Assembly: GCA_938038265.1 (NCBI GenBank)
Contig: CALHRC010000002.1
Span: forward strand, 1 to 37,370
From: an uncultured bacterium
GTDB taxonomy: Bacteria > Spirochaetota > Leptospiria > Turneriellales > Turneriellaceae
DNA: 37,370 bases
Direction of reading: 5' to 3'
This document shows, piece by piece, positions 7,245 to 34,420 of the stretch. Made by a program: the position numbers and the translations under genes. Under the pieces are notes generated by a model that was given only the letters and a program-made list of their open reading frames with translations, made no database searches and was not told the DNA's origin. Every line of letters begins with the position of its first letter. The first letter of the stretch is position 1.

Positions 7245-10039
7245 AAACATGGCTAACCAAATTTCTACCTGGAATCAGAATGCAACTAACCTTGCTTATT
7301 TTTCTTGTCATATTGATTTTGCTTATTGTATTAACTTTATGGTTAATTGATCGGCAGAACAGTACCATACGCCGTGAACTCGCTTCGCAAACTGAACCTA
7401 TCTTAGAAGTTTTCAAGAATATTCTTCTTGAACAGAACCAGCTCGAAAGATCTCTTGCCCAAATGGAATCAATGCGGGAAAAAATCCGCAAAGTACCTAA
7501 CAGAAAAAGTTATTACGATCAGTATTTTTCTGAAAAATATCTACAAATAGCAGAAAGAGAAATACGCTCACAGTTGCGTTCAGCAGATGGAACAGCTCTT
7601 TCTGAAGAAGAAGCGGCTGCGTTTATCAATGCCAGAAAAAAAATTATTACCGCCAAAATTAACCGTAGGGAAGAACTCAACTGGAATCCAGCAAGCTGGC
7701 TGTCTGAAGGACTCATTCGGGAAGTGCGGCAAGTAAAATACAGTATCCGCACCACCCGAGGCAGAAATATTGAACAGGAACGCCAGGCCATCCGCAATAA
7801 TATACAGGCTGAAGGCAGGGATAAACTGGGGTTATTTAATTTTGATTCATCTCAATTACGCATGCAGGCTTTTGATCCCAACGGAGAGATTTTATTTGAT
7901 ACGGCTACATTAGAAAAATACAACTTATCTCCCGTCAATCGTCTAAATCTTAACGAAGGGGAACACAAAAAAAATTATGCTAATTTTTTACAGGTAATCC
8001 GTGACATAAGAAAAAAGGTACCCGGCGCTATAGAACGTCTATCAGAAATAGAAAATCTATCCTGGCATAGAAATTCAAAATTTGCTGATTCATTTCATAC
8101 GCTGCACTACGACGAAGAAAGCTCTACGCGAGCAAAAATTTTAATTAATGTATTGACATCTCAAGATAAAGCCATACAAAATTGGCTGCAAGAATACGAG
8201 CAGCAAGAAGAGCAGATAATCTCACAATTGCGCAGTATAACAGAACAACTTCGCTTTCGCCTAGCGGAAATAAAACAACAGCAACCCAAGATGCCACCCT
8301 ATAAAGATAAGCTATTTCGTGATACTTATTTGCAGTATAACAACTTAATAAAACAAAAAAAGCATTTGGCACATAAAATTATTCCAATAGTAAATCCATA
8401 TATTGAAGAGCTACGTAAAAATGAAGCCCAACAGGCACAAAGCAGACAGCGAATTGCTGATCTGAAAAAAAGCCTTGCCAGCTTAAAAAAAGTAAAACAC
8501 CAAGAAAATAATTTTGATAATGAAAAAAACTTGCTGGAGCAAAAACAACGTTCCATCCAAAAAGATATAGAAGATGAAAACGAAAATCTAAACCTTCTTC
8601 AGGAAAAAGCCAAACTGCTAAAATATCGTTCCGAAAACTGGAATTATGCCCGCGAAGAATTTCTCCGTGACTCTTTTGAAAACCTTGCTGATGCGTATCT
8701 TTATAATCAAATTATATTACGCTATCGTTATGATAGTTTGGCATTACGTGATTATCTACATTCCCCCCAAGAGAGAGAAAATAAAAAATTAATTTGGGCG
8801 ACAATACGTAACTGGATATATGCGGCACAAAACGAACTAAATCCTCCTACAAAAACCAGTGGCAAATTTAAAGTACCACTTTTTAAGAATGCTTTGCTGG
8901 CAAAAAATAGATTAGAAGCAGAAGAGCAGATGTGGTTTATTGATACGGCCAGTACGCGTGAACTGGCACATAAAATACTGTATGAAGATAATTATGCCGG
9001 CTTCATACGTTTTACGGCTGATCTTACTGAATACCAAAATATATTTGAAGCCGAACGTAACCGACTTACTTATTTACTCTTAGCCATCGGAAGTTTTGGA
9101 GCTCTGCTTGCGTTTCTACTGTCATCAGTATTTGTTACAAGAATTCGTCGTGTCTCAGAACAAGCTGCCCAGGTTGGCCTTGAGGGCAATCTTGATATCC
9201 GCTTTTCGCAAAAAGGCTGGGATGAAATTTCCTTGTTACAAAAATCACTTAACCAAATGCTCTCCTCACTCAAGGCCGGCGAAGAAGTGCGTAGCCAAAT
9301 GCATGCCGCCAGTGAAGTACAGAAAAGACTCTTACCTGAAAAGCTCTCTGGTCCTTTAGCAACGAAATTAGATACTGCCATGCTGTATCGTGCCATGTCA
9401 AATATCGGTGGCGATTACTATGATATAATCCCTTCAGGCACAGAACGGTTAGCAATTTGTATTGGGGATGTCTCTAATCATGGCATTGGTCCAGCTCTCA
9501 TCATGTCTAACTTAAGCGCCCAAATAAAACTATTGGTTAACCTGGGTATTACATCACCCAGAAAAATTCTTTTAAAATTAAATGAACTACTGGTACACAA
9601 CACCCCAGAAGATATGTTTGTGACTTTTTTTCTATCTTTTTATGATTTTAACAATAAAGTGCTTTATTGGAGTTGTGCCGGTCACAATGATGGCATTCTC
9701 GTACGCACCAATGGTAACCTGGAATTACTACAAGGAGGCGGCCTGCCTCTGGGTATGGATGAAAATGAGTCTTTTTTGCCGGCTCTGTTATCAAACCAAA
9801 CTCAAATACAAAAGGGGGATCTTTTTTTTCTATTCACTGACGGTTTAACCGAAGCTAAAAATGCCGAAAAAAATTTTTATGGTATTGAGCGCCTGAAAAA
9901 TATCCTGAAAACCAACCATCACCTTAACTGTTATGAGATCCTGCAAAATATTGTTCAAGATTTAGCTATTTTTACTAACCAGAACCCCAATGCTTTGAAC
10001 CTCGATGACGATATTGCCATGATTGCCATCAAATTTTAA
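7241..10039 (+). CDS. Membrane RsbU/SpoIIE-type serine phosphatase with long extracytoplasmic sensor
   Basis: A 932-aa PP2C-type (SpoIIE domain) phosphatase. One membrane helix is near residues 12-34 and a second near 609-631; between them lies an unusually long, lysine/glutamine/glutamate-rich region of about 570 residues with strong coiled-coil character, predicted outside the cytoplasmic membrane. A HAMP-like segment follows (about 632-685), then the phosphatase domain with GGDYYD (723-728), IGDVSNHGIGPALIMS, and FTDGLTEAKN carrying the metal-binding aspartates. It overlaps the RsbW-like gene by 4 bp (ATGA). The expected job is to dephosphorylate the STAS protein encoded two genes upstream in response to an envelope signal. 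The size of the sensor region is the odd feature, since most RsbU sensors are much shorter. Phosphatase assignment is firm; the signal is unknown. Confidence 0.92.
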   Translation: MKTWLTKFLPGIRMQLTLLIFLVILILLIVLTLWLIDRQNSTIRRELASQTEPILEVFKNILLEQNQLERSLAQMESMREKIRKVPNRKSYYDQYFSEKYLQIAEREIRSQLRSADGTALSEEEAAAFINARKKIITAKINRREELNWNPASWLSEGLIREVRQVKYSIRTTRGRNIEQERQAIRNNIQAEGRDKLGLFNFDSSQLRMQAFDPNGEILFDTATLEKYNLSPVNRLNLNEGEHKKNYANFLQVIRDIRKKVPGAIERLSEIENLSWHRNSKFADSFHTLHYDEESSTRAKILINVLTSQDKAIQNWLQEYEQQEEQIISQLRSITEQLRFRLAEIKQQQPKMPPYKDKLFRDTYLQYNNLIKQKKHLAHKIIPIVNPYIEELRKNEAQQAQSRQRIADLKKSLASLKKVKHQENNFDNEKNLLEQKQRSIQKDIEDENENLNLLQEKAKLLKYRSENWNYAREEFLRDSFENLADAYLYNQIILRYRYDSLALRDYLHSPQERENKKLIWATIRNWIYAAQNELNPPTKTSGKFKVPLFKNALLAKNRLEAEEQMWFIDTASTRELAHKILYEDNYAGFIRFTADLTEYQNIFEAERNRLTYLLLAIGSFGALLAFLLSSVFVTRIRRVSEQAAQVGLEGNLDIRFSQKGWDEISLLQKSLNQMLSSLKAGEEVRSQMHAASEVQKRLLPEKLSGPLATKLDTAMLYRAMSNIGGDYYDIIPSGTERLAICIGDVSNHGIGPALIMSNLSAQIKLLVNLGITSPRKILLKLNELLVHNTPEDMFVTFFLSFYDFNNKVLYWSCAGHNDGILVRTNGNLELLQGGGLPLGMDENESFLPALLSNQTQIQKGDLFFLFTDGLTEAKNAEKNFYGIERLKNILKTNHHLNCYEILQNIVQDLAIFTNQNPNALNLDDDIAMIAIKF

Positions 10040-13166: not shown

Positions 13167-13183
13167 TTTTTAGTAACTAAAAA
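13167..13183. repeat. Isolated P1 palindrome at the endonuclease gene stop
   Basis: TTTTTAGTAACTAAAAA is the P1 module of the composite repeat family found at 25-37 kb. Read on the minus strand, its TTTTTAG supplies the final Phe codon's tail and the TAG stop codon of the endonuclease I gene. No P2, P3 or linker module accompanies it here. Confidence 0.7.
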
Positions 13184-25195: not shown

Positions 25196-25280
25196 TACCC
25201 TTTGGATACATTGCTTGGGTGGTTACGGATTTCCTGAACACTGGTTTGGAATAGTTGGGGGGAACTTTTGCCGACAAGCC

Positions 25281-25887: not shown

Positions 25888-25907
25888 TGTTCAGGAATTC
25901 CTGAACA
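25888..25907. repeat. Perfect P3 palindrome, left of the RHH-like gene
   Basis: TGTTCAGGAATTCCTGAACA is a perfect 20-bp inverted repeat. It lies in the divergent spacer between the PDZ gene (start 25,862) and the tandem RHH-like gene (start 26,008). An identical copy lies at 26,469-26,488. Confidence 0.9.
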
Positions 25908-26007
25908 GAACAGGCTGCTATGAAAAAAATATCCCTTCTGCCAAAAAAAATCAATAAAAATCTCTGCAAAACGCAAATTTCTGCCCTGTCGTCGGGTATA
26001 TAATAGT

Positions 26008-26562
26008 ATGAGAGTTAAGGAAGGTACAGCGAAAGCAGAAACGGGTATAAGGGATATCTGGGAAATCCGCCTGGATAAAAAAATGATAAAAACAATCCGT
26101 AAAACAGCAGAGATGCGGGGAACAACCATGTCTTGGATTGCGCGTTTCTGTATTTTCAAATTAGTTCATAAGAAATTGATCCATCGCACTACATTTTACG
26201 ATATGGCAATGGAGATTAGGGCGTCTCAACCTCCGTGCCGGGAATTAGGGCGTTTTTATGTGTGTTTTTACGGAAATGATATTCTTTGGGTCAAGATGCA
26301 GGCAGATGCATTGAATGTCACGGTCTCCATGCTGGTCAGGATTGCTTTGGCACGTTACTTACCACTTTTACAAGACAAGAACCGAATTCCCTGGTGGCGG
26401 TTGTTCTGGTATGGGATTAAAATAAATAAATCGGTAGGTGTATATTCCCTACGAGTCAAACGTTGTCTTGTTCAGGAATTCCTGAACAGTAACTCATACC
26501 TACCCTCCGAATACTGGGACACTCCACCCGGTCCCGTGCCATCCTACCTAACCAACCCATAA
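26008..26562 (+). CDS. Putative tandem ribbon-helix-helix-like DNA-binding protein
   Basis: A 184-aa basic protein with no recognised family name. It contains two similar segments: IWEIRLDKKMIKTIRKTAEMRGTT...SWIARFCIFKL (about 18-53) and FYVCFYGNDILWVKMQADALNVT...SMLVRIALARYL (about 82-115). Each looks like a short beta strand followed by two helices, as in ribbon-helix-helix DNA-binding folds, so one chain could mimic an RHH dimer. TATAAT lies at 25,999-26,004, only 3 bases before ATG, and no ribosome site is visible; a leaderless transcript is possible. The 3' end runs through a perfect P3 palindrome (26,469-26,488), which supplies residues in the LVQEFLNS tail, and another P3 lies 100 bp upstream of the start. 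Inference: it may bind the palindromic repeats. Confidence 0.65.
   Translation: MRVKEGTAKAETGIRDIWEIRLDKKMIKTIRKTAEMRGTTMSWIARFCIFKLVHKKLIHRTTFYDMAMEIRASQPPCRELGRFYVCFYGNDILWVKMQADALNVTVSMLVRIALARYLPLLQDKNRIPWWRLFWYGIKINKSVGVYSLRVKRCLVQEFLNSNSYLPSEYWDTPPGPVPSYLTNP
26469..26488. repeat. Perfect P3 palindrome inside the RHH-like gene tail
   Basis: TGTTCAGGAATTCCTGAACA, identical to the copy at 25,888-25,907. Here it is translated as part of the C-terminal tail (VQEFLNS) of the gene ending at 26,562, suggesting that the repeat was inserted near, and perhaps altered, the original 3' end. Confidence 0.9.
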
Positions 26563-27691: not shown

Positions 27692-27719
27692 TACTTGGTG
27701 GGGAATTCCCCACCAAGTA
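27692..27719. repeat. Perfect 28-bp palindrome (extended P2)
   Basis: A perfect inverted repeat whose half-site reads TACTTGGTGGGGAA from the left end, centred on GAATTC. It is the longest P2 copy in the window; other copies keep only the GGGGAATTCCCC core, with arms of variable length. Confidence 0.9.
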
Positions 27720-27722
27720 CCG

Positions 27723-27773
27723 TCCGACAAGAGGTGTCGGATGGTGCCCCTTGTCCGACATGTTGTGTCGGAC
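27723..27773. repeat. TGTCGGA double-hairpin module
   Basis: Two adjacent hairpins: TCCGACA/TGTCGGA (27,723-27,729 and 27,735-27,741, loop AGAGG) and GTCCGACA/TGTCGGAC (27,753-27,760 and 27,766-27,773, loop TGTTG). A degenerate copy, with GTGTCGGATGGCGC and GCGACATTTTGTGTCGG, lies at about 34,268-34,310, again just after a P2 element. Confidence 0.75.
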
Positions 27774-28213
27774 CGGTGTTTTGTCGCGCAGCAAGGTGTC
27801 ATGGATTGGGAATTCCCCCATCTGTTCTTAGAATTCCTGAACAAGGGGATGGTATCACCGCCTTGCAAGGAGCTGTTAGTTACTAAAACAAATATAACGT
27901 TAGATAGATATTATACCTTGCTATAGTTATGGCACCCCCAGTAGGTGGGAAATTCCCCATCTGTTCAGGAATTCCTGAACAAAAATAGAGTTCCATCCCT
28001 GCGTCAGGGCTTGTTAGTTACTAAAAAGCTAAATTATCTCCCTTCGGGGATGGGGAATTCCCCATGTATCCTTAGAATTTCTGAACTAAGTAGCTGTCGC
28101 CTTAGGTAAAGAAAGCCTTGGTTTACCCAAACAGGGGGGTTTTTAGTTACTAAAAGCCACATTATGTCCCATTCATGGTAGGGAATTTCCTATTTGTTCA
28201 GGAATTCCTGAAC

Positions 28214-28355: not shown

Positions 28356-28358
28356 GGG

Positions 28359-28397
28359 TGGGGAATTCCCTACCTTAAGTTCAGACATTCTAAGAAC
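28359..28397. repeat. Degenerate P2 and P3 pair
   Basis: P2 as GTGGGGAATTCCCTAC (28,359-28,374) followed by a decayed P3, GTTCAGACATTCTAAGAAC (28,379-28,397). This is the last recognisable piece of the array before glpD. The remaining about 115 bp hold the glpD leader, where no clear promoter was seen. Confidence 0.7.
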
Positions 28398-33999: not shown

Positions 34000-34420
34000 T
34001 GAAGTCTTTGCGGGTAAGGCGACCCGTCAAGCGAGAAAAGTTTCTCTTACGGCCTTGCCTTAAGCGGCGCACAGAAACCTACAGCTACCATCTTTATACA
34101 TAGTCTCCTTCACCTGCGGCAGGGGGGCGTCACTCCAGGCCGTTGTCTATTGGTACTTGCATTCCTAAATAAAAGCGGCATTACATCCCCTTGCGGGTTT
34201 TTAGTTACTAAAAAAAGACATTATGTCGCATGAGGGATGTTTTGGGTGAGAAATTCCCCACCAGGCGGCAGGTGTCGGATGGCGCTTTGTGTGCGACATT
34301 TTGTGTCGGATGAGAGTTTGTTGCAGTCTAAAAACAAAAGCGGCATTACATCCCCCCGCAGGGGGCTTGCACGACAAACTCATTTGACAAGCTGTCTCAA
34401 AAACCAGAAATAGCCTGAAT
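34000..34420. repeat. Repeat-bearing intergenic region upstream of lysC
   Basis: Gene-free. P1 with long arms (TTTTTTAGTTACTAAAAAA, about 34,197-34,215) is followed by a linker GACATTATGTCGCATGAGGGATG, a decayed P2 (GAGAAATTCCCCACC, near 34,248-34,262) and the TGTCGGA module (about 34,268-34,314). P3 is missing. GCGGCATTACATCCCC occurs twice, near 34,172 and 34,343, flanking the unit like direct repeats. The left part (34,000-34,150) holds a small GAGAAA/TTTCTC hairpin and nothing else recognised. The lysC promoter must lie here but is not evident. Confidence 0.75.

Follow-up and report, generated by a model that had tools for sequence, protein, structure and literature searches.

A tandem ribbon-helix-helix gene family and its bracketing palindromes as a probable cognate pair in Turneriellales

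Here, we describe a gene of the Turneriellaceae (Spirochaetota; Leptospiria; Turneriellales) that lies between two identical palindromes, and we propose that gene and palindromes, as members of a co-diversifying family, are probably cognate to each other. The pair would work as a selfish or semi-domesticated system of the REP-RAYT kind, with a ribbon-helix-helix (RHH) protein as the trans-acting recognition factor. The known partners of common REP-like repeats are mainly HUH transposases; here the partner would be an unrelated and apparently non-catalytic protein. The gene was found in a window of 37,370 nt, which is the whole stretch of DNA analysed, from the forward strand of contig CALHRC010000002.1 (assembly GCA_938038265.1). 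The genome of the window, labelled G000, comprises 2.61 Mb in 234 contigs and is 83% complete.

Both palindromes are perfect 20-mers of the CAG type (P3, TGTTCAGGAATTCCTGAACA). The first occupies positions 25888-25907, with exactly 100 bp between its end and the ATG at 26008, and the second occupies positions 26469-26488, in frame within the coding sequence, where its 18-bp core encodes V155-Q-E-F-L-N160. The initial annotation had placed one copy 100 bp upstream of the gene and one inside its tail, and both were confirmed. Allowing up to three mismatches, P3 has four matches in the window and none in 100 dinucleotide shuffles, and its 18-bp core has 193 copies in G000 and none in a reversed control. 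The palindrome itself is therefore a genome-wide repeat, and what goes beyond chance is the bracketing of the gene. An upstream CAG-type site is found in seven of the eight CAG-clade paralogs of G000, the eighth being truncated by a contig end, and the in-gene palindrome is equally placed in all paralogs of the CAG and TAT clades.

The gene (26008-26562, forward strand) encodes P0001, a protein of 184 amino acids in the CAG/Tyr84 clade, delineated from the open reading frame, Pfam, AlphaFold and its paralogs. The Pfam entry RHH_1 matches its first half above the gathering score (E 1e-5), and the AlphaFold model, built from an alignment of 55 sequences, reaches a mean pLDDT of 92.4 and a pTM of 0.87; it replaces an earlier model from 15 sequences (pLDDT 79). 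The model contains the strand-helix-helix fold of the CopG/MetJ/Arc superfamily twice, which bears out the two RHH-like halves proposed from the sequence and gives a fold of a DNA-binding type. Domain 1 covers residues 14-53 (26047-26166, forward strand; strand 14-23, helices 24-37 and 41-53) and domain 2 covers residues 80-122 (26245-26373, forward strand; strand 80-88, helices 91-101 and 106-122), including residue 84 at 26257-26259. A linker helix (60-73) lies between the domains, and a further helix (129-136) precedes a C-terminal beta-hairpin of residues 140-163 (26425-26496, forward strand; strands 140-150 and 153-163), with the code for its second strand running across the palindrome. 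P0001 is thus a single-chain tandem RHH protein, with a fold predicted at high confidence. Immediately 5' of the ATG, at 25975-26004 on the forward strand, is a conserved, promoter-like module, AAATTT ... TATATAAT. Paralogs from several genera have a similar AT-rich, TATA-like module in front of the start codon, and the simple pattern AAATTT-N-TATA occurs in 36 of 75 genes.

Searches of Pfam, NCBIfam, PADLOC and PHROGs identified no catalytic domain in P0001. Pfam returned only RHH_1 and similar families, PHROGs nothing beyond weak CopG-like matches, and the PADLOC defence library no relatives. Among PDB structures, the nearest fold is that of the F-relaxosome protein TraY (Foldseek E 0.03, probability 1.0), which likewise holds a whole RHH dimer fold in one chain, reads the major groove and touches neighbouring TraY molecules (PMC12117103). 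The resemblance is one of fold: the sequences are unrelated (4-10% identity), the family profile has no sequence match in the PDB, and the C-terminal hairpin of P0001 lies outside the matched RHH fold. TraY, moreover, has its conjugative role at oriT and no known association with dispersed palindromes. P0001 shares with autoregulators of the CopG/Arc type the RHH fold and palindromic sites at its own gene, but differs in having two RHH units per chain, bracketing sites and genome-wide repeats.

P3 belongs to a larger superfamily of palindromes. A 354-kb sample of G000, made up of the window and 20 further stretches, contains 147 perfect palindromes of at least 14 bp, of which 115 have the core GGAATTCC, and the superfamily consensus GNTNNGGAWWTCCNNANC occurs 562 times in G000 against none in the reversed control. 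Symmetric half-sites obey the pattern G-N-T-N-N-G-GAA (GTTCAG, GATGGG, GGTGGG, GCTATG, GGTATG, GATATG, GATGTG and GATAGG), and the GAATTC core of G000 is matched in other genera by GGAAATCC/GGATTTCC forms. Besides the two copies of P3, the window contains an imperfect member at 25222-25239 (GTTACGGATTTCCTGAAC), a GGG-type palindrome (P1) at 27697-27714 (GGTGGGGAATTCCCCACC), P3-like palindromes of the CAG type at 27963-27980 and 28196-28213, in an intergenic cluster, and an imperfect GGG-type palindrome at 28357-28374. The CAG type and the GGG type (GNTGGGGAATTCCCCANC, 114 copies in G000), both of them derived, are absent from 17 other genomes. About three quarters of the CAG sites fall outside open reading frames, though these span 88% of the G000 sample.

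Neighbouring sites in G000 are also spaced unevenly. Centre-to-centre distances are commonest at 18-22 bp (22 pairs), with a second peak at 40-44 bp, about two and four helical turns, and none fall at 23-32 bp; as composite blocks are duplicated in this genome, the spaced sites are not all independent. All 22 of the closest pairs join unlike types (e.g. at L088, L091, L093, L096 and L102), like-type pairs not being seen at that distance, and gaps between CAG sites are often 108-233 bp.

The initial annotation had raised the possibility that P0001 also recognises two further repeats, P1 and P2, and neither suggestion holds up well. P1 (GGGGAATTCCCC) is a member of the same superfamily as P3, but it is located at other paralogs, those with Arg84, and is therefore probably not a site of P0001. 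P2 (TTAGTTACTAA) falls outside the palindrome frame, is not a member of the superfamily and is unlinked to the gene family.

G000 has 15 full copies of the gene and one fragment at dispersed loci, the others being 33-59% identical to P0001 over the aligned region. The family is present in 13 of 393 genomes of the phylum, all in one order, at 2 to 17 copies per genome. A scan of a collection of named genomes gave 'Leptospiraceae bacterium SKYG28' as its sole match, and searches of viral contigs and, with a relative from genome G055 as the query, of plasmids gave no relatives. Palindromes follow the gene, in a comparison that the initial annotation had called for: in a set of 18 genomes of the order, the family is encoded by each of the 12 that have at least five palindromes, and the five that lack it (G017, G095, G120, G160 and G220) have none or one. 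Outside G000, counts of GNTNNGGAWWTCCNNANC are 81 in G048, 79 in G156, 72 in G152, 54 in G141, 40 in G115, 35 in G069, 34 in G055, 14 in G193, 13 each in G202 and G129, 5 in G075 and 2 in G110. Genomes rich in the gene and devoid of the repeat would have spoken against the proposal, and the last two come part of the way, G110 having six genes and G075 eight gene matches beside few palindromes. Their genes nevertheless keep the in-gene palindrome, which in G110 is a variant, GCTATGAAAATCCATAGC, within the coding sequence of all six. Assemblies also break at or near family copies (G152 contigs C2, C22, C45, C125 and C203; G048 contigs C5, C6, C34, C41 and C42), which suggests that near-identical copies are more numerous than counted.

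Bracketing was counted with one relaxed site definition applied throughout and with random zones as the background. In G000, a 5' site is found at 13 of 15 genes, an in-gene or 3' site at 14 and both at 13, against 12.6%, 21.2% and 4.3% in random zones. For 62 genes in 12 other genomes, the corresponding numbers are 22, 40 and 14, against 1.4%, 2.9% and 0.06%. As a point against the pairing, G048, despite 17 gene matches and its 81 palindromes, has the arrangement in only one of the eight genes examined.

The in-gene site is always in phase 0 and encodes either A-M-[DE]-x-H-[SN] or V-[QK]-[ED]-F-L-N, at a place in the protein that depends on the lineage. It lies at reference residue 158 in G000, G048, G129, G075 and one G156 gene (L172), at residue 124 in the genus of G055, G069, G115, G141 and G193, at residue 66 in most site-bearing copies of G156 and all of G110, and at residue 146 in one G156 copy. 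A tree from which those columns were left out requires at least four changes of placement. Codons at the in-gene sites are more symmetric than peptide and codon usage would predict (a mean of 7.7 against 5.0 of nine pairs, for sites preselected at seven or more), and in some genes (L020, L021, L024 and copies in G152) a decayed in-gene copy is replaced by a palindrome just past the stop codon. As the place in the protein varies with the lineage, it is simplest to suppose that the DNA site is maintained and not the peptide, which would point in an unusual way to selection acting on DNA inside coding sequence.

Palindrome type and protein clade are paired. In G000, the CAG-clade genes (L009-L016) have CAG palindromes, whereas the other genes have TAT (L017, L018 and L022), GTG (L020) or GGG (L021 and L023) palindromes, and the fragment L024 has AGG. 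The tail palindrome resembles the flank palindrome of its own gene at 110 of 140 variable positions, a value that none of 200,000 permutations reaches; for the seven non-CAG genes alone, 72 of 5040 permutations reach the observed similarity. Six of the 184 protein columns separate the three classes, and residue 84 is the only one with a single residue in the CAG class and a single residue in the GGG/GTG class. It is Tyr with CAG (P3), Arg with GGG/GTG (P1) and Asn, Ile or Met with TAT, a correlation that includes few independent switches because the paralogs are phylogenetically non-independent. Tyr84 and Arg84 are absent from every aligned member in the other genomes. In an alignment to Arc made by eye, residue 84 falls on the second strand, in the middle of its DNA-facing residues, and it is predicted to face the DNA in P0001. 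Its covariation with the palindromes is an indirect sign of sequence-specific DNA binding, which would take place through the beta ribbon. An RHH recognition code could be tested on the natural specificity series that the paralogs provide (Y, R or N/I/M at residue 84 against CAG, GGG/GTG or TAT half-sites).

Several copies support the duplication of the gene unit to new loci as a discrete piece. Three genes of G069 (L152, L153 and L154) are 95-97% identical over about 700-750 bp. The shared stretch starts at about -184/-235, at palindromes, and finishes 3-6 bp beyond the stop codon; outside it the sequences are unrelated. G152 contains five near-identical 3' parts, at or close to contig ends; three continue to a palindrome after the stop codon and their flanks diverge at it or within a few bases, and two diverge at the stop codon. 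Unit ends thus lie at palindromes on the 5' side and at the stop codon or a palindrome on the 3' side, and near-identical copies at unrelated loci with such ends suggest that the unit duplicates like a mobile element. As the 3' ends differ between copies, some of the near-identity may have arisen by gene conversion between paralogs. The gene at one G069 locus is absent from the syntenic interval in G193, although a joined-flank search there found no precise empty-site junction. Neither a target-site duplication nor a transposase was seen at the duplicated copies. In G069 (L150, about 8690-8710), the end of a family gene overlaps the start of uvrA (ATGAATAAAATTCGT...), and the unit there adjoins a DNA repair gene.

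In REP-RAYT systems, the gene always lies between two REPs with which it co-evolves, and REP abundance tracks the gene (Nunvar et al., PMC2817692). Our family largely reproduces these hallmarks, and the likeness that the initial annotation had drawn is apt: genes are bracketed by two family palindromes (13 of 15 in G000, 14 of 62 elsewhere), the short palindromes are also abundant between genes and form mosaic clusters, and they diverge in step with the gene and occur where it is present. The differences lie in the tandem RHH protein, which has no HUH/Tyr motif (Y1_Tnp was not found in G000), in the perfect 18-20-mers with a symmetric consensus and no GTAG/CGTC tag, in the site within the coding sequence, and in the 2-17 gene copies. 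As the defining transposase was sought and not found, we regard the system as REP-RAYT-like in its working and not as a REP-RAYT system.

The proposed mechanism can be outlined as follows. One chain is predicted to fold as a complete RHH 'dimer', and two chains probably occupy the two half-sites of the 18-bp palindrome, GNTNNGGAA|TTCCNNANC. The fixed bases may be read by the conserved strand residues E19, R82 and C86 and the variable bases by residue 84. A gene unit tends to have a site 5' of its promoter and another inside or just after its coding sequence, and protein occupying the two sites could link them and restrain its own expression. In G000, sites have multiplied without the gene as well, giving hundreds of intergenic copies, and the protein may have a part in this spread. 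The chemistry of movement probably comes from another enzyme or from host recombination. A stronger version, which we put forward tentatively and hold to be less likely than the cognate pairing itself, is a self-dispersing unit with no encoded transposase. Its sole product, the tandem RHH protein, would recognise the palindromes at either end of the gene that encodes it, switch specificity essentially via residue 84 and so found new spreading families of palindromes.

Other explanations account for parts of these data. RHH proteins are typically autorepressors, and P0001 could be a pure autoregulator whose two sites are operators for DNA looping, the scattered palindromes being unrelated (a regulon or repeats spread by other means). 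Sites upstream of the promoter and in the gene, 570-670 bp apart, fit looping, as does an in-gene site that shifts along the gene and is still retained, and we give this reading a modest chance; it leaves unexplained the discrete duplication of the unit and the fact that one genome has hundreds of intergenic copies in clusters. A chromosome-organising role seems improbable. MatP-matS also consists of an RHH protein and dispersed palindromic sites, MatP being single copy and its sites confined to Ter, and RHH proteins on dispersed palindromes might similarly shape the chromosome here, given the hundreds of sites in G000, their helically phased spacing and the largely intergenic placement of the CAG type. 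Such a role fits poorly with the multicopy genes and clade-specific sites, the 5-80 sites of most sister genomes, the quick turnover of copy numbers and types between genera, and two near-complete genomes of the same family that have neither palindromes nor gene.

It is very improbable that a standard HUH/Y1 transposase (RAYT or IS200/IS605) moves the palindromes as ordinary REPs and that the RHH link is incidental. Their size, clustering and intergenic placement are REP-like, and nine of the 18 genomes have Y1 transposases; yet there is no Y1_Tnp match in G000, the genome richest in palindromes (562 sites; 83% complete), or in G048, G156, G141 and G202. Y1 presence does not track the palindromes, G095 and G120 having Y1 and no family gene, which makes RAYT unlikely as the mover, and a Y1 mover predicts no pairing between palindrome and RHH protein. 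We attach equally little weight to the idea that a conserved peptide (VQEFLN, AMDFHS) gave rise to the in-gene palindrome incidentally. The constant reading phase and, in the CAG clade, the position in a predicted beta strand agree with it, whereas the lineage-dependent placement, the shift to 3' of the stop codon in some copies, the resemblance to the clade's own flank palindrome and the codon symmetry beyond what the peptide needs do not.

Palindromic DNA maintained in frame inside genes is familiar from the Rickettsia palindromic elements (cf. PMC10969869). Those elements enter unrelated genes, whereas the palindrome described here sits within one paired gene family. DUF1564 (PF07600), with up to 49 matches in sister families within the class, resembles our family in being multicopy and dispersed and in having, by eye, two RHH-like segments. 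We rejected it as the parent family (hhalign probability 0.8%, no matches in G000), and nine DUF1564 loci examined (L186-L194) have no perfect superfamily palindromes. Its amplification in the sister families may be a parallel case or the trace of a very distant relative. Our search of the literature on Leptospira or Turneriella with DUF1564, palindromic repeats or RHH-plus-repeat systems returned nothing relevant.

The intergenic clusters hold other repeats too. A second module, P2 followed by ..ACATTATGTC.CAT, is mingled with the palindromes and occurs in the window at 13167, 25156, 27632, 27873, 28011, 28140, 34199 and 37218. An inverted-repeat module, GTCCGACA...TGTCGGAC, is found in repeat clusters at 27732-27781 and 34270-34319, the two copies being 78% identical. 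G141 has hybrid palindromes with one TAT-type half and one CAG-type half (GCTATGGAATTCCTGAAC; L223, 689-741). Another palindrome family of G000, ATATAACGTTATAT (e.g. at L095 and L102), has six members with its 14-mer core in 354 kb, and palindromes with the core AACGTT number ten in 404 kb of the same genome.
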